64,000 nt of DNA from Nitrospirota bacterium. Lineage in GTDB: Bacteria; Nitrospirota; Nitrospiria; SBBL01; JAADHI01. The stretch's first letter is position 1. Each line of letters opens with the position of its first letter. Both the position numbers and the translations under genes were made by a program. The stretch is from contig JAJDBX010000006.1 of NCBI GenBank assembly GCA_029261135.1, positions 1 to 64,000 of the forward strand, in the 5' to 3' direction. Under the pieces are notes generated by a model, which saw nothing but the letters and a program-made list of their open reading frames with translations, was not told where the DNA came from and made no database searches. Shown piece after piece: positions 2,071 through 11,343 of the stretch.

Positions 2071-2081
2071 GTTTTTATTGA

Positions 2082-2102
2082 TATTGATAATGATTATCAA
2101 TA
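2082..2102. promoter_or_regulatory. Fur box
   Basis: TATTGATAATGATTATCAATA: perfect 10-1-10 palindrome containing the Fur core TGATAATnATTATCA, directly downstream of the promoter. Confidence 0.88.
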
Positions 2103-2236: not shown

Positions 2237-3358
2237 ATGAAGAAAGGATTAATTTTGGCCCTGTTTTTCACTGTCACCATGGTCTTTGCAATGAAGGGAT
2301 GGGCAATGGAAATGGAAACCGAGTCCGCCGAAGGCGGGACTTCCAAACTAGATATGCACGGATACGGTGAACTGCACTACAATATTCCGCGTGATGGGGG
2401 CAACTCAAACATGGATTTGCATCGCATGGTGTGGGGTGTGAGTTATGAGTTTAGCGACCGGATTAGCCTACACACGGAGGTTGATTTTGAGCACTCGGCG
2501 CAGGCAATGGAACTTGAGTTTGCTTACGTCGATTTTTTGATGAATCCTGCGGTTAATGTCCGTGCCGGCTTGATGTTGATGCCGGTTGGCCCATTGAATG
2601 AGTATCACGAGCCAGTGCTGTTTTACAGCGTTGAACGACCGACGGTTCAAAAGGTGATTATTCCGACAACCTGGCAAGAAGGGGGCGCAGGCATCTTTGG
2701 TTCGCCGGTGGAAGGTTTGCAGTATCGTATTTATATGGTCTCCGGTTTAGCGGGAGAAGGCTTTCGTGCAAAAGACGGTTTGCGAAAAGGACGTGGAAAG
2801 GGAGATGGCGGAGAAAAAAACCCCCAGACCGGAGAAAAACTGGCCATCGTGGCCCGTCTAGAATATACGCCCGCTGCAGGATATGATCTGGGTGCGTCTT
2901 ATTACAATGGCAAAGTGGATCAAGTGAATAATATTGCCGGAGATCCTTCTGTTACCATTATGGAAGGGGATATTCGTATGCGCATGTCGGGACTTGATTT
3001 TCAGGCACTTTATGCCAAGGTGGATATTGACGATGCCAATCAGATCAACGCCGCTTTTTCAAAAAACATTGCGGAGGAAATGGTGGGATGGTATGTCGAG
3101 CTGGCCTATCATCTCGGTCATTTATTGCAAACGGAATGGGATCTGGTTCCTTTTTACCGAATAGAAGAGGCGAATACGCAGGATGTCATGCCTGCTGGGA
3201 CAACGGCAGACTTGCAGTATGATCAGGAAATCACGACCTATGGTCTTGCTTTTTTTCCCGATCCCCAAGTCGCCATTAAGGTGGATTTTCAAAACGTCGA
3301 GGATGCAGCGGGTGGAGACAAGGATCAATATGATCTCGCCGTCGCCTACATGTTCTAA
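2237..3358 (+). CDS. outer-membrane porin-like beta-barrel protein
   Basis: signal peptide, alternating beta-strand pattern, C-terminal aromatic (AVAYMF). Confidence 0.75.
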   Translation: MKKGLILALFFTVTMVFAMKGWAMEMETESAEGGTSKLDMHGYGELHYNIPRDGGNSNMDLHRMVWGVSYEFSDRISLHTEVDFEHSAQAMELEFAYVDFLMNPAVNVRAGLMLMPVGPLNEYHEPVLFYSVERPTVQKVIIPTTWQEGGAGIFGSPVEGLQYRIYMVSGLAGEGFRAKDGLRKGRGKGDGGEKNPQTGEKLAIVARLEYTPAAGYDLGASYYNGKVDQVNNIAGDPSVTIMEGDIRMRMSGLDFQALYAKVDIDDANQINAAFSKNIAEEMVGWYVELAYHLGHLLQTEWDLVPFYRIEEANTQDVMPAGTTADLQYDQEITTYGLAFFPDPQVAIKVDFQNVEDAAGGDKDQYDLAVAYMF

Positions 3359-3711: not shown

Positions 3712-3996
3712 ATGTTTAAAAAGTCTTGCAGGAAAGAGATCTTGGTGTCTACGCCGTATGGCACGATTTGCCGATGCCCTTGCGGCACTTTTTATGTCCG
3801 TATGGGGGAGATGAACATTTGTTTTCCTACTTATGAATTTGAAGAATTGGCGCGGCTTTTTAAACTGTCTCTCGGCATGATTTCGGCAGAAAAATTGGCC
3901 GAAACCGAATCCAATCCATTTTGGAAAAAAGCTGGGAGAAAGCGAGCGCGTGGGGAGAGCACAGGCATTTTTTATGTAAAAGGAGTGAGTGTATGA
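3712..3996 (+). CDS. small Cys-rich hypothetical protein
   Basis: ICRCPCGTFYVRMGEMNICFPTYEFEELARLF; ATGA overlap with next ORF. Confidence 0.65.
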   Translation: MFKKSCRKEILVSTPYGTICRCPCGTFYVRMGEMNICFPTYEFEELARLFKLSLGMISAEKLAETESNPFWKKAGRKRARGESTGIFYVKGVSV

Positions 3997-4286
3997 AAAA
4001 GCAGGAAAATAAATCTCCGGTGATATTGGCACAGTCTGATTTCGGAAAAGTGCATACTTGCCGTTGTGGTGGATACCACGTGAGCTGTCAGCAGACGACA
4101 TTGCATTTCTCCAAGGAAGGATTCAATGCCCTGAGGGATTTGTTGGTGCAGGCGCAACAGCGCGAACACGAAGCGTGTCTCTCCCCTCAAAAAAAACAAG
4201 GCGGCAGAGATGTCGGAACAGGGAAGCGGAGGGGTTTATATCTTGTTTATGATGAGGGCCACCGGGAAGCTGAGGAGGGGTCATGA
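3993..4286 (+). CDS. small Cys-rich hypothetical protein, apparent paralogue of the preceding ORF
   Basis: HTCRCGGYHVSCQQTTLHFSKEGFNALRDLL aligns with preceding protein; ATGA overlap with 4283 CDS. Confidence 0.65.
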   Translation: MKKQENKSPVILAQSDFGKVHTCRCGGYHVSCQQTTLHFSKEGFNALRDLLVQAQQREHEACLSPQKKQGGRDVGTGKRRGLYLVYDEGHREAEEGS

Positions 4287-4774
4287 CACCGTTTATGAAA
4301 CGATGCTGCCCGATGGTTGTCAATATACAAAGGATTCCTCTTCTGGTAGTAGGGTTTTTGTTGTTGATGATTTCATTCATGCCAGCCGATGCCGGGAGTC
4401 AGGAGCCGGTTGCTTCCGGGATTATACAGGTGGAACTGAGAGAATGGGAGATCCTGGTTGACGAAACGATCTTGAAACCGGGGAAGGTGACTTTTTATGC
4501 GGAAAATCAGGGCAGCTTCATGCATGAGATGGTGGTGATTCGAACCACGCTTTCTGCAGATGCCTTCGAGGTGGCAGGGAGCAGAGTGCAAGAAGAAGTC
4601 ATTGGCACGGTGAGGGGTGAGATCGAAGGATTGCCTGCCGGAAAGTTAGGGGAAATCACCCTAGATCTTCCCGAAGGACATTATGTCCTTTTCTGTAATA
4701 ACCGGGAAAAGGGTCATGCCGAAGGGCATTATCAAAAAGGGATGCGTGTCTCTTTCAAGGTGGGCTCTCCCTGA
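4283..4774 (+). CDS. secreted cupredoxin-like protein
   Basis: hydrophobic N-terminal signal; MHEMVV ... YVLFCNNREKGHAEGHYQKGM has His/Cys/His/Met cupredoxin-like ligand pattern. Confidence 0.75.
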   Translation: MTPFMKRCCPMVVNIQRIPLLVVGFLLLMISFMPADAGSQEPVASGIIQVELREWEILVDETILKPGKVTFYAENQGSFMHEMVVIRTTLSADAFEVAGSRVQEEVIGTVRGEIEGLPAGKLGEITLDLPEGHYVLFCNNREKGHAEGHYQKGMRVSFKVGSP

Positions 4775-4788
4775 AAAAATCATATTCT

Positions 4789-6324
4789 ATGAAGGTTCAA
4801 ACGCAGAAAAGATTCCGGATTTTGATGGGTGCGCCTTTTGAAATCATCGCCACAGGAGAGGCAGACCACTGTTCTGAAGCAATTGAAGCGGCCTTTCAAG
4901 AAGCTGCCCGGATTGAAGGCCTTTTTACGATTTATCAGCCGGAGGCCGCGCTCGCCCGCTTCAACCGTGCTGACAAAAAAGACCCTACTTTTTTAGAGCG
5001 GGAAGTCCTTGAGGTGCTTGCTGAGGCTGTCCGTTACGCGGGAAAAAGCGGCGGGGCCTTTGATCCGGCGGCGGGCCGTCTGGTGGATCTTTGGGGCTTT
5101 GGCCCCGGCGGTGAGGTGAAGCGCCAGCCCTCAAAGTTATCGGTGGCGAGAACGCTTCAATCGTCTGGATATACATATTTAAACATTGATCTCGAATCAG
5201 GCTGTGTAAGATCTTCTTGTGAGAGCCTTCATCTCAACCTGGGAGGAATTGCAAAAGGCTATGCCATCGACCGGGCCGTCTCGGTTTTAAAAAAATACAG
5301 CATTCAGAGAGGATGGGTCAGTTGTGGTAGCACACTCTATGGATTCGGCAAGCCTCATTGGCGGGTTGCCATTCAGCATCCCCGGGATGAAACAGCAGAA
5401 ATCGAAACCTTGAATTTCTCGGATTATGCCTTGGCTACATCGGGGGATTATGAACGTTGTTTTGTGGAACAAGGACGGCGCTACAGCCATCTCATTGATC
5501 CGAGAACGGGCTATCCGGTTTCTGGTATGGCAAGTGTAAGTGTGATTGCCAAAACCGCAATGGCAGCCGACGCCCTTTCGACCGCGGCCTTCGTTTTGGG
5601 AGTGGATCATGGACAAGGCCTTTTGGAGACCGAGCCGGGCGTGGCCGGATTTTTAATTTCGGAAGATAAAAAAGGTGCGCTACAGTTTCACCGGACGGCA
5701 GGATGGTCTTCGTTCTCCGTATCCTGTGCGCAGCCTGTTTTGAGCCGGAGACGTTTTCTGAAGACCGCGGGTATGATCGCTGTCGGACTGATGTTGCCTG
5801 GAGGGTTAATGAGACCCGAACGATCGGAGGCCGCAAAGATTCGTTTCACTACGGAAAAAGAGGCTCTGGCGCGGATGATCCCCGAAGCAGGTCATTTTGA
5901 GATTGAGTCGGTGCACTTGAACGACGATCAACTTTCAATCGCTCAGCAGATGGCTGGAAAGGGATTCCGAAAAAGGACCTATGATTTTTGGGTCGGTCGG
6001 AAGGGAGAGAAGGTGGCCGGTTATGCTCTCAAGTTGAATGTCGTTGGGAAAAAACAGCCGATTACTTTTTTAATCGGCATCGCGCCGGAAGGTACCGTCA
6101 AGGGGGTAGAAGTGTTAATATATCGAGAATCAAAGGGTTCAGAGGTGCGTTACCAACGGTTTATGAAACAATTTCATCAAAAAACAGCGGAAGACCCTTT
6201 ACGGCTGGGCCGTGACATTCGTCCCATAAGCGGGGCGACGCTTTCATCACGTGCTGCGGCTTACGCGGTTCGTAAGTCTTTGGGCCTTTTTGAAGTGGTG
6301 TACAAAGGAGCGGAGCCGTCTTGA
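4789..6324 (+). CDS. ApbE-type FAD:protein FMN transferase fused to a twin-arginine segment and an FMN-binding domain
   Basis: ApbE motifs (LNLGGIAKGYAID, SGDYERCF, YSHLIDPRTGYP, AMAADALSTAAFVLG); SRRRFLKTAGMIAVGLMLPGG; C-terminal DIRPISGATLSS flavinylation-type motif. Confidence 0.9.
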   Translation: MKVQTQKRFRILMGAPFEIIATGEADHCSEAIEAAFQEAARIEGLFTIYQPEAALARFNRADKKDPTFLEREVLEVLAEAVRYAGKSGGAFDPAAGRLVDLWGFGPGGEVKRQPSKLSVARTLQSSGYTYLNIDLESGCVRSSCESLHLNLGGIAKGYAIDRAVSVLKKYSIQRGWVSCGSTLYGFGKPHWRVAIQHPRDETAEIETLNFSDYALATSGDYERCFVEQGRRYSHLIDPRTGYPVSGMASVSVIAKTAMAADALSTAAFVLGVDHGQGLLETEPGVAGFLISEDKKGALQFHRTAGWSSFSVSCAQPVLSRRRFLKTAGMIAVGLMLPGGLMRPERSEAAKIRFTTEKEALARMIPEAGHFEIESVHLNDDQLSIAQQMAGKGFRKRTYDFWVGRKGEKVAGYALKLNVVGKKQPITFLIGIAPEGTVKGVEVLIYRESKGSEVRYQRFMKQFHQKTAEDPLRLGRDIRPISGATLSSRAAAYAVRKSLGLFEVVYKGAEPS

Positions 6325-6812
6325 AAAATTTTACACGCCGGGGGAATTGGCTTGATCAGGCCACAGTTGAAATTCGGGCCATTTATACCCTCTTTTTGGT
6401 CTTCGCCCTTATCGGGCATCTCACCTTCGTTTTGATGGTGGTGAGCAGGGTAGGGCCGGGTTATGAGAAAGTCGTTGAATATTACCTCGGAGGCGAGGGA
6501 GAAGATGAAATGACCTTCCCAAAAGAATTTCAAGAACTATTAGAGGTTACACATTTTCATGCCTATATCGAAGGGGTGGTTCTCCTGGTTTTGACGCACC
6601 TCTTTGTGGTTGTTCCGATTCCACAGGGTCTGAAACGGGCGATTATCGGCCTTGCCTTTGGCAGCACCTTGCTTGAGCTACTCTCTCCTTGGATGATCCG
6701 CTACCTCACACCCTACGCTGCTTTCGCACAGATGGCTGCCTGGATCGGCATGTGTGTCGGCTATTTCCCGCTGACGCTGATCCCAGTCTACTATATCTGG
6801 CGAAAAATTTAA
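6321..6812 (+). CDS. four-TM membrane protein with TM-adjacent histidines
   Basis: hydrophobic segments; GHLTF, THFHAY, THLFV; start overlaps preceding stop. Confidence 0.75.
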   Translation: MKNFTRRGNWLDQATVEIRAIYTLFLVFALIGHLTFVLMVVSRVGPGYEKVVEYYLGGEGEDEMTFPKEFQELLEVTHFHAYIEGVVLLVLTHLFVVVPIPQGLKRAIIGLAFGSTLLELLSPWMIRYLTPYAAFAQMAAWIGMCVGYFPLTLIPVYYIWRKI

Positions 6813-6920
6813 AAGTCATGATTCATCCCACCTGTACTTTTCTCCGTGGGTACATGTTGTCGGTTTTGTCCTTTATTGAGAAAAGAATTGAAAAACCTTC
6901 TCTCATTGCCTATCCTTCTT

Positions 6921-6945
6921 GATGATTATGATAATGAGTTGCAAT
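6921..6945. promoter_or_regulatory. degenerate Fur-box-like site upstream of fur
   Basis: GATGATTATGATAATGAGTTGC contains NATWAT-like hexamers. Confidence 0.4.
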
Positions 6946-6989
6946 TCCCTTTGCTTTCCGTTCTTGGAAAGCACGCGAAGAGAAAGCCG

Positions 6990-7430
6990 ATGATGAAAGA
7001 AGAAGAACTTCTAAAAAGCCATATCTCAAAACATAACCTGAAAGTGACAAAAGAGCGGTCTTTGGTCTTACGGGTCTTTTTGGATTCGGAGCCGCATATC
7101 ACGGCGGAGGAACTTTATCGAAAGATGAAGAATGACGGATCCTCAATCGGTTTGGCGACGATCTATCGCACATTGAACCTTTTTTGTGAAAGCGGACTGG
7201 CCGAACAGCGTCAGTTTGGGGATGGTCAAGCCCGCTACGAATTGGTCTACAACGTGAAGCATCATGATCATCTCATCTGTAAACAATGCAGCCGCATTAT
7301 TGAGTTTGAAAATCAGGAAATTGAAGCGTTGCAAGAAAAGGTGGCCAAAAAAAACAATTTTAAGATTTTTAGCCACAAGCTTGAATTGTATGGCATTTGT
7401 GGTAATTGCTCCGAAAAAAATGATCAGTAA
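6990..7430 (+). CDS. fur: Fur family transcriptional regulator
   Basis: HITAEELYRKM, SIGLATIYRTLNLF, HHDHLICKQCSRIIEFEN, GICGNC. Confidence 0.92.
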   Translation: MMKEEELLKSHISKHNLKVTKERSLVLRVFLDSEPHITAEELYRKMKNDGSSIGLATIYRTLNLFCESGLAEQRQFGDGQARYELVYNVKHHDHLICKQCSRIIEFENQEIEALQEKVAKKNNFKIFSHKLELYGICGNCSEKNDQ

Positions 7431-8638: not shown

Positions 8639-10273
8639 GTGACACCACTTTCTTCTATAACAAAGGCAAGCCCTCATCGCTCTGTTGATCGGTGGGGCCT
8701 TGCTGTTTTTTTGATCGCTGCGATTGTTTGTATCCCGCTGGGTGTTGTCCTTTCCTCTTTGTTCACGGTTCATGATGAAGTTTGGACGCACCTCGTAGAA
8801 ACGACATTGTCCCATGTCCTCATCAATACATTTTTCTTGACCTTAGGCGTTGCCATAGGAACTAGCTTGATCGGTGTGGGGCTTGCCTGGTTGACCGCGG
8901 CGACTGATTTTCCAGGACGTCGATTTTTTGATTGGGCGCTGATGCTTCCGATGGCGATTCCATCCTATGTCACGGCATTTGTTGCCATCGGACTCCTCGA
9001 TTTTACCGGTTCCATTCAAACAATGCTTCGCGCAGCCTTTGGAAAGCATTTACCTTGGTTCCCTGAGATCCGATCGACTGGCGGGGTGATTTTGGTCATG
9101 ACCTTGACGCTCTACCCTTACGTGTATCTTTTGGCACGCAATGCTTTTTTAAGCCAAGGACGTCTCGCCTTGGAAGCGGCGCAATCCCTCGGTCACGGTC
9201 GATGGTCTGGTTTTTTTCGTGTGGCCCTTCCAATGGCGCGTCCCTGGATTGTCGGTGGGGTCATGCTGGCTTTAATGGAAACTTTGTCTGATTTTGGAGC
9301 AGTCTCTATTTTTAATTATGATACTTTTGCGACAGCGATCTATCAGGCATGGTTTGGATTTTTTTCAATCTCTGCGGCATCCCAATTGGCCTCATTGCTT
9401 GTTCTGCTTGTTTTTGTCCTTCTATTGATCGAACAAAGGGTGACTGCACGAGTACGTTATACAACGGATGTGCGTGGTGCTGACCATGGTATTCGCATTA
9501 AGCTGGGTTCAGTTCATCAAGGCCTTGCTTTGAGTTTTGCTTCACTTGTTTTTTCTATTGCTTTTTTGATCCCAGTTTTGCAGTTGCTCATTTGGAGCTA
9601 TGCGATAGTAAAAGAAGATCTGGATCTGCGATATCTGGGTTATTTGGGACATTCCCTGTCTCTGGCGGCTATGGCAGCCCTGTTGACTGTTTCAGCCGTT
9701 CTCGTCTTGGTTTACGCAAAGCGTTTGCACAATACTGCAGTGCTTCGATGGCTGGTTCGTTTTGCAACCTTGGGTTATGCGCTGCCGGGCTCTGTATTGG
9801 CTGTGGGTGTTTTTATTCCGCTTGCTTGGTTTGATAATCAGCTAATTACTCTTTTCAAAAGTCCTGTTATTTTGAAAGGAACCTTGCTGGCAATGCTCTT
9901 GGCTTACTTGGTGCGTTTCCTTACCGTGGCGCACAATCCGGCAGAAAGCGCGATAAAACGAATTTCGCAGCATATTGATGAATCGGCGAGAAACTTAGGC
10001 TGTAGCGGTGTCGATATGTTGCGGCGTGTGCATCTTCCGATGATGAAAGGGGGCGTTTTAACCGCATTCGTCTTAGTGTTTGTCGATGTCATGAAAGAGA
10101 TGCCGATTACACTCATGACGCGTCCTTTTGGATGGGATACGCTTGCCATTCGGATTTATGAAATGACCTCAGAAGGGGAGTGGGAACGCGCCGCCTTACC
10201 CGCCATCGCCATCGTCTTGGCAGGACTGCTTCCTATTTTTTTCCTCATGCGAGATCCTGAAAAGAAATTTTAA
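8639..10273 (+). CDS. iron(III)-type ABC transporter permease (FbpB-like, double permease)
   Basis: about 12 TM helices; two EAA-like loops (LEAAQSLGHGRWSGFFRVALPMARPW; DESARNLGCSGVDMLRRVHLPMMKGG). Confidence 0.88.
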   Translation: MTPLSSITKASPHRSVDRWGLAVFLIAAIVCIPLGVVLSSLFTVHDEVWTHLVETTLSHVLINTFFLTLGVAIGTSLIGVGLAWLTAATDFPGRRFFDWALMLPMAIPSYVTAFVAIGLLDFTGSIQTMLRAAFGKHLPWFPEIRSTGGVILVMTLTLYPYVYLLARNAFLSQGRLALEAAQSLGHGRWSGFFRVALPMARPWIVGGVMLALMETLSDFGAVSIFNYDTFATAIYQAWFGFFSISAASQLASLLVLLVFVLLLIEQRVTARVRYTTDVRGADHGIRIKLGSVHQGLALSFASLVFSIAFLIPVLQLLIWSYAIVKEDLDLRYLGYLGHSLSLAAMAALLTVSAVLVLVYAKRLHNTAVLRWLVRFATLGYALPGSVLAVGVFIPLAWFDNQLITLFKSPVILKGTLLAMLLAYLVRFLTVAHNPAESAIKRISQHIDESARNLGCSGVDMLRRVHLPMMKGGVLTAFVLVFVDVMKEMPITLMTRPFGWDTLAIRIYEMTSEGEWERAALPAIAIVLAGLLPIFFLMRDPEKKF

Positions 10274-10281
10274 GGTATATT

Positions 10282-11343
10282 GTGATGATTATTGAACTCA
10301 TCCATGTGTCCAAATACTACCCTCAGAGCACCTCTCCTGCGGCCTTTGATATTTCCCTGAAGGTCAAAAAAGGAGAAATCCTCGCACTCTTGGGTCCCAG
10401 TGGCAGTGGCAAAACGACTGTACTTCGGCTCATCGCAGGGTTTGAATCCCCGGACGAAGGAACGATTCTTCTTAAAGAAAATGAAGTGAGTCAACCCGGT
10501 GTTTCTCTTCCCCCAGAGAGAAGAGGGGTCGGCATGGTTTTTCAAGACTATGCCTTGTTTCCTCATCTAACTGTAGAAAGGAATATCTCTTTTGGTTTGA
10601 TTCATATGTCTCATGACGATCGGAAGAAAAAAGTATCAGACATTCTCGCTTTGGTTGGTCTTTCCGACTATCGCAATCGTTATCCTCACGAGCTTTCAGG
10701 AGGACAACAACAGCGTGTCGCCTTAGGGAGGGCTTTGGCACCAGATCCGGCAGTTATTCTTTTGGATGAACCCTTCAGCTCTCTTGACCCGGATATGTGC
10801 GTGCGTATGCGTGAGGATGTGTCTTCGATTTTGAGAGAAACAGGAAGTACAGCCATCTTGGTCACACATGATCATGAGGAGGCCTTTAGCATGGCCGACA
10901 AAGTTGCGCTTCTCAACAATGGCCGTCTTGAGCAACACGGTACACCGGAAAATATTTATCACACTCCCTTAACCCCCTTTGCTGCTGATTTTGTCGGAAA
11001 GGCAGATTTTATTCCGGGTGTTGTTCAAGGTGATAAGCTGATGACCGAGATTGGCTGCTTAGAAAATAAGACTCAGTTCACAGAGGGAGATGAGGTGATG
11101 GTGATGATTCGCCCTGACGATATTGATCTGAGACCCGAGGAAGAAGGAGAAGCCATCATTCTTGATCGCCAATTCAGGGGATCGGAAAACCATTATCGTG
11201 TGCGGCTTTCATCAGGACAGATTGTGCATAGTAGCCAGCATTCTGTTGCAGTTTACCCGAATGGCTTGAAGGTAGATCTCCAGATACAAATGACGCATAT
11301 CGTTGCTTTTGATAAAAAGGAAATGGATGCCTACCTCGATTAA
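10282..11343 (+). CDS. ABC transporter ATPase (FbpC-like)
   Basis: Walker A LGPSGSGKTT, LSGGQQQR, Walker B VILLDEPF, TOBE-like C-terminus. Confidence 0.92.
   Translation: MMIIELIHVSKYYPQSTSPAAFDISLKVKKGEILALLGPSGSGKTTVLRLIAGFESPDEGTILLKENEVSQPGVSLPPERRGVGMVFQDYALFPHLTVERNISFGLIHMSHDDRKKKVSDILALVGLSDYRNRYPHELSGGQQQRVALGRALAPDPAVILLDEPFSSLDPDMCVRMREDVSSILRETGSTAILVTHDHEEAFSMADKVALLNNGRLEQHGTPENIYHTPLTPFAADFVGKADFIPGVVQGDKLMTEIGCLENKTQFTEGDEVMVMIRPDDIDLRPEEEGEAIILDRQFRGSENHYRVRLSSGQIVHSSQHSVAVYPNGLKVDLQIQMTHIVAFDKKEMDAYLD

Follow-up and report, generated by a model that had tools for sequence, protein, structure and literature searches.

ApbE flavin transferases and FMN_bind substrates are normally separate proteins, with ApbE usually exported or lipidated and located in the periplasm. 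In the window analyzed here (64,000 nucleotides of a Nitrospirota genome, contig JAJDBX010000006.1), a leaderless ApbE and an FMN_bind domain instead lie in one chain, with an export-like signal between them. This arrangement raises the question of where the FMN_bind half would receive its flavin and by which route it would leave the cytoplasm. An earlier note on this DNA had proposed cytoplasmic flavinylation before Tat export, an internal membrane anchor or an internal translation start.

An ApbE domain, a Tat-like signal and an FMN_bind domain in a single frame

The gene and its parts lie at the following positions:
4789..6324, + strand: ApbE - internal Tat-like signal - FMN_bind fusion gene, 511 aa in a single stop-free frame
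4825..5646, + strand: leaderless ApbE flavin transferase domain (PF02424; similar in sequence and fold to ApbE/FmnB structures of the PDB)
5707..5742, + strand: linker from W306 to residue 318, fast-evolving (mean majority frequency 0.32 for residues 307-317)
5740..5742, + strand: TTG codon two codons ahead of the RR pair (a start codon here in 9/17 copies; no Shine-Dalgarno sequence)
5743..5836, + strand: internal Tat-like signal SRRRFLKTAGMIAVGLMLPGGLMRPERSEA with the cleavage-type site SEA|A (RR in 17/17, hydrophobicity, small residues at -3/-1)
5839..6321, + strand: FMN_bind substrate domain, RnfG/NqrC-like (PF04205; rnfG models; RnfG 7zc6_G by sequence and fold)

The frame from 4789 to 6324 (+) was open throughout, as the earlier note had claimed. 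Its first part matched the Pfam ApbE family (PF02424) over residues 13-286 (E 1.6e-75, 254 bits against a cut-off of 25.6), and a Foldseek comparison brought the ApbE half to FmnB/ApbE structures with an E-value of about 1e-22. The window protein carries the ApbE motifs GGIAKGYAID, TSGDYE, HLIDPRTG and DALST, and the corresponding patterns G-x-x-x-K-G-Y-A-x-D, T-S, D-P-R-x-G and D-x-x-S-T-A are invariant across the fused homologues. The absence of an N-terminal signal ahead of ApbE, also part of the earlier description, was borne out in the window gene and in its homologues, where we found no hidden leader. In L008, the N-terminus is long and overlaps the upstream porin gene, with no leader-like stretch inside.

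The proposed C-terminal FMN-binding domain was recovered as Pfam FMN_bind (PF04205) at residues 420-498 (E 1.2e-8, 35.9 bits against a cut-off of 22). It contains a flavinylation motif, D476-IRPISGAT484, which fits D-x(4)-SGA[T/S], and the C-terminal half resembles RnfG/NqrC by sequence and by fold comparison. Only FMN_bind was found in this half by Pfam, and a C-terminal fumarate reductase domain is absent from the fusion. In the structure model, two ordered domains are separated by low-confidence residues 312-354. Judged from its sequence, the gene carries an ApbE flavin transferase and an FMN_bind substrate domain, and the transfer of FMN to Thr/Ser is inferred. The fusion shares its domains, motifs, RnfG-like substrate and ApbE fold with the known pairs of ApbE and RnfG/NqrC-type FMN_bind proteins.

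The fusion is conserved in seven families of class Nitrospiria

We searched for the same three-part order in 58 relatives and then in 271 genomes of class Nitrospiria. It was present as one gene in 17 genomes from seven families (f1, f2, f3, f5, f10, f11 and f12), four of which (f1, f2, f3 and f5) belong to the order that includes Manganitrophus/Troglogloeales. The linkage of an enzyme to its probable substrate through an export-like signal is therefore a kept arrangement, and the objection that homologues might always be encoded as two genes fails. The fusion was uninterrupted in 15 genomes; the G008 copy ends at a contig end and the G017 copy is frameshifted in its ApbE part. This last frameshift (L055) is the one observation that would fit a fusion or frame error of the assembly, or a decayed gene. 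Such an artefact is ruled out, with practically no room left for it, by the same fusion in independent assemblies from seven families, with catalytic and substrate motifs intact. For the G017 frameshift itself (L055 / L016, Manganitrophus GAC4), sequencing error and decay were not distinguished. In the fusion homologue L018 of G023, SGAS replaces SGAT, which puts a Ser at the flavinylation position.

The fused sequences formed one clade in the FMN_bind tree (94/86) and one clade in the ApbE tree (97/89). The fused FMN_bind was the only one of its genome in 16/17 genomes, and the fused ApbE was the only one in nine, including the single-contig genome G013; the pair therefore looks dedicated. 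Among the best 80 loci of a genome-contig scan with patterns from the ApbE part, no fusion appeared outside Nitrospirota. On plasmids, no place covered 80% of the fusion query.

Other ApbE genes were seen in some of these genomes. The second ApbE of the window genome G000 (L045; contig C72, 77951-78715) is leaderless and very distant from the fused ApbE, and its neighbours, named by eye, are a DUF3570-like and a thioredoxin-like protein. In G017, a separate ApbE (L214) has an apparent Tat leader of its own (MNRREVLKLLGLTVVNLSFGG).

The segment between the two domains has the features of a Tat signal at an internal position

A twin-arginine motif had been reported near residue 320. We located RRRFLK at this position, and column conservation among the fused homologues showed R320 and R321 to be invariant (17/17), with F323 and L324 at 0.94 each, against a mean majority frequency of 0.32 for linker residues 307-317. 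Profile support is weak: Pfam TAT_signal matched residues 318-337 with an E-value of 0.006, below the Pfam cut-off, and the TIGR01409 TAT model gave 17.0 bits for a cut-off of 16.7. Since an RR motif appears in about 1.2% of shuffles of the window protein, the single match is only moderately surprising, and its significance comes from the conservation in 17/17 copies rather than from the lone match. In all 17 copies, hydrophobicity peaks, at modest values, in the segment that follows RR, and small residues at -3/-1 stand directly ahead of the mature domain in every copy. The fusion thus shows the RRxFL motif, the weakly hydrophobic h-region and the AxA-type site expected of a Tat substrate, with RR, the h-region and small -3/-1 residues each kept in 17/17 copies. 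Tat signals usually sit at free N-termini, whereas the RR pair of the fusion lies at residue 320 of a single frame. Ahead of RR we found no hydrophobic window as strong as the h-region, and the ApbE domain is soluble by its fold. TatC was found in the window genome (E 3.4e-67) and in 14/17 of the genomes with the fusion; the three without a match are 69-85% complete.

The same stretch could be read as an uncleaved anchor inserted by Sec/YidC, which would leave ApbE in the cytoplasm and FMN_bind outside. Every homologue has its hydrophobicity maximum here, and an N-in/C-out topology with a single anchor is common. However, RR and RRxFL are conserved far beyond what an anchor needs, and a stretch that is only modestly hydrophobic, as Tat signals are, and has a small -3/-1 site in 17/17 copies makes Sec insertion less likely. 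We consider the anchor improbable. It would in any case require the attachment of FMN before insertion, because ApbE and its substrate would end on opposite sides of the membrane.

Alternatively, a cytoplasmic protease might cut between the domains, after which the C-terminal part would leave through Tat with a free N-terminus. The linker at residues 307-319, mostly unordered in the structure model and poorly conserved, would be a suitable place for such a cut, but it has no conserved cleavage motif and the operon encodes no protease partner, which leaves this route very doubtful.

The TTG codon ahead of RR is probably a relic start codon

The earlier note had also raised an internal translation start at TTG 5740. 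In that case two products would be made, the full-length protein and a shorter Tat-FMN_bind protein on which ApbE would act in trans. The codon exists, and a product that began with MSRRRFLK would have the usual N-terminus of a Tat substrate. Two codons ahead of RR, seven copies have TTG, one has ATG and one has GTG; the Leu codons at this position are all TTG (7/7), compared with about 22% of the Leu codons in the same genes. However, a start codon is missing there in 8/17 copies, a good Shine-Dalgarno sequence precedes it only in G022 and is lacking in the window copy, and a stop codon between the two halves has arisen in none of the lineages. Moreover, the TTG pattern also fits a relic of the fusion event, and the related genomes are not independent. 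With a start codon in only nine copies, a ribosome site almost never present and a fusion that was never lost, TTG 5740 is unlikely as the main route. Its codon pattern points to a probable relic start codon of a formerly separate Tat-FMN_bind gene; a minor product from an internal start in some species is not excluded.

Overall, of the export options first considered, cytoplasmic flavinylation followed by Tat export is the best supported.

Split relatives carry exported ApbE proteins and Sec-like FMN_bind leaders

In the sister Nitrospirales and related families, ApbE and FMN_bind are separate genes of one locus. Nearly all the separate ApbE proteins of the class that we compared have a leader, an anchor or a lipobox, the exceptions being the leaderless and distantly related ApbEs of L045, L222, L224 and L225. 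The separate FMN_bind homologues have Sec-like leaders, and a consensus Tat motif was found in 0 of the roughly 35 separate FMN_bind loci examined. In three separate FMN_bind loci (L187, L191 and L040), an RR pair lies near the leader. Among the loci read in a phylum-wide search, we did not find a Tat-FMN_bind half with the consensus motif outside the fused clade. The single-clade trees and this contrast in leaders indicate that the fusion, the leaderless ApbE and the Tat signal arose together, once, in one branch. Folded, cofactor-bearing proteins are carried by Tat and not by Sec, and in view of this the joint appearance is the strongest indirect argument that flavinylation has moved to the cytoplasm. 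The co-appearance of fusion and Tat is a correlation with n = 1, that is, a single evolutionary event.

A leaderless ApbE also occurs without a Tat-type substrate. On two alphaproteobacterial plasmids (L230 and L231), it lies beside an FMN_bind protein with a Sec-like leader, and the same pairing was seen at the Nitrospirota locus L192. Therefore, an ApbE that looks cytosolic does not by itself demand Tat, and a general rule that leaderless ApbE always goes with Tat is ruled out. The plasmid modules (L230 1311-4772 and L231 1129-4652) run porin-like protein - FMN_bind - leaderless ApbE - small TM protein, similar to the fused operon but unfused and in reverse order. Locus L192 (4440-6519, G489), from another Nitrospirota class, has the order FMN_bind - leaderless ApbE - FMN_bind.

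The fusion lies in an operon beside iron genes, with an upstream Fur box

The following features surround the fusion:
2080..2098, + strand: Fur box upstream of the operon, 17/19 consensus matches, the best in the 64-kb window
2237..3358, + strand: outer-membrane porin (Porin_O_P-like), first gene of the operon (Pfam match just under the cut-off; synteny)
6321..6812, + strand: membrane protein whose gene overlaps the stop codon of the fusion (four TM helices modelled)
6846..7430, + strand: Fur-family regulator (PF01475, E 4.8e-39)
8639..11343, + strand: permease (FbpB-like) and ATPase (FbpC-like) of an ABC importer of the ferric-iron type (profile matches; Troglogloeales neighbours)

Shuffles gave no Fur box above 14 matches, and Fur boxes stand at comparable places in most of the relatives examined; the scoring covered only the window and the relatives' loci. 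A second box at 2086-2104 (15/19) overlaps the 2080-2098 site. Syntenic homologues of the porin are present at nearly every fused or split locus. With few exceptions, the fused loci keep the order porin - (ApbE-)FMN_bind - 4-TM protein, which is shared by split loci of other classes. Fur and FbpBC lie nearby in the Troglogloeales loci, and the f10 loci have Fur with a cupredoxin and FTR1. Between the porin and the fusion, three ORFs (3712-3996, 3921-4286 and 4283-4774) encode two small homologous proteins and a secreted protein that is possibly cupredoxin- or EfeO-like; they were seen in the window's genus and are absent from the loci of other families compared.

The 4-TM protein adjoins FMN_bind in the Nitrospirota loci compared. 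It gave no Pfam family above the cut-off, and a fold search of its model gave no PDB match. Within the fused clade, E75, H78, H80 and H93 are invariant (ExxHxH...H), and the three His could bind haem. The protein is likely the membrane electron partner of FMN_bind, with electron transfer being inferred, and is a candidate for a new haem/quinol partner of flavinylated proteins.

Flavinylation-linked iron assimilation systems of the PepSY-like, MsrQ-like and P19/FTR1-associated types have been described (PMC8238504). They resemble the fused locus in having a flavinylated extracytosolic protein and a membrane electron partner, both of which are inferred for the fused locus, as well as iron genes and, for some, Fur control. 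Unlike in those systems, the likely membrane partner at the fused locus is a small protein with four TM helices that belongs to no known family. By analogy with the flavinylated PepSY-, MsrQ- and P19-linked systems (PMC8238504), the role that we infer as the best fit is the reduction of ferric iron in the periplasm for its assimilation.

Comparison with known fusions and internal Tat signals

In the literature available to us, we found no description of the ApbE - Tat signal - FMN_bind combination. The flavinylation survey of Meheust et al. left out genes without a predicted signal peptide (PMC8238504), and the fused form may have escaped it for this reason. The fumarate reductases of trypanosomatids (T. 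brucei, L. pyrrhocoris) have an N-terminal ApbE domain and are flavinylated intracellularly (PMC12052999). As in the Nitrospirota gene, ApbE stands N-terminal to its own substrate, although cis action is only inferred for the latter. The trypanosomatid proteins have no export signal, their product is intracellular (in the glycosome for T. brucei) and their ApbE domains are under 25% identical to bacterial ones. A cytosolic ApbE of Klebsiella pneumoniae serves a soluble fumarate reductase (PMC12052999); it is leaderless like the fused ApbE, but the genes are separate and the substrate is not exported.

Internal Tat signals are known from Dual Sec-Tat membrane proteins, namely the actinobacterial Rieske protein Sco2149, Sco3746, polyferredoxins and the YkuE type (PMC5449189). 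In membrane proteins of the Rieske type and related ones, such signals come after segments inserted by Sec (PMC5449189, PMC13186574). These proteins resemble the fusion in that an internal RR precedes a weakly hydrophobic segment and, beyond it, a cofactor domain. In contrast, their signal comes after Sec-inserted TM segments and is kept as an anchor, whereas that of the fusion comes after a soluble enzyme and has a cleavage-type site. We found no internal Tat signal behind a soluble domain of about 300 residues in the literature.

Cytoplasmic flavinylation before Tat export as the proposed explanation

The best explanation, which we hold with somewhat more confidence than doubt, is that FMN is attached in cis within the cytoplasm and that Tat export, cleavage and periplasmic Fe(III) reduction come afterwards. 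The ApbE domain would stay in the cytoplasm and use cytosolic FAD as the source of FMN, which would be attached to Thr484 of FMN_bind in the same chain or in a neighbouring copy. Once FMN_bind is folded and loaded with its cofactor, the internal RRxFL signal would be recognised, Tat would move the FMN_bind half to the periplasm, and signal peptidase would cut at SEA|A. The released FMN_bind, with the adjacent 4-TM protein, would form a periplasmic electron carrier that most likely reduces Fe(III), and this reduction would serve the Fur-controlled iron-import locus around the fusion. The computation shows a conserved fusion in an operon with an upstream Fur box, and a conserved signal with a cleavage-type site; compartment, order of events, cis action, cleavage, flavinylation and ferric reduction are inferred. 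Against this mechanism stand the Tat models, which score only around their cut-offs, and G023, with a Ser at the flavinylation position. The internal place of the signal, the pairing of leaderless ApbE with Sec-like substrates at other loci and the unordered linker of the structure model also count against it. Our judgement is evenly divided on the broader idea of a self-modifying precursor, in which a soluble enzyme loads its own cargo and an internal Tat signal without any prior membrane segment exports the finished half.

The fusion and the conserved Tat signal between its two halves together point to intracellular attachment of the cofactor, on one and the same polypeptide, ahead of the export of the finished half. 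The internal Tat signals known from the literature that we found all follow membrane segments, and the fusion makes it possible to test in a natural protein whether Tat recognises a signal that lies behind a folded soluble domain. If true, internal Tat signals would gain a new class, and an exported FMN_bind protein would be flavinylated in the cytoplasm rather than in the periplasm. Surveys that require an N-terminal signal peptide would miss this architecture. The locus further suggests a Fur-controlled iron operon that has not been described and that includes a new membrane partner. Finally, one phylum offers a paired contrast between split loci, with an exported ApbE and a Sec-type substrate, and fused loci, with a leaderless ApbE and a Tat-type substrate, which fits the idea that the site of cofactor insertion dictates the export route.
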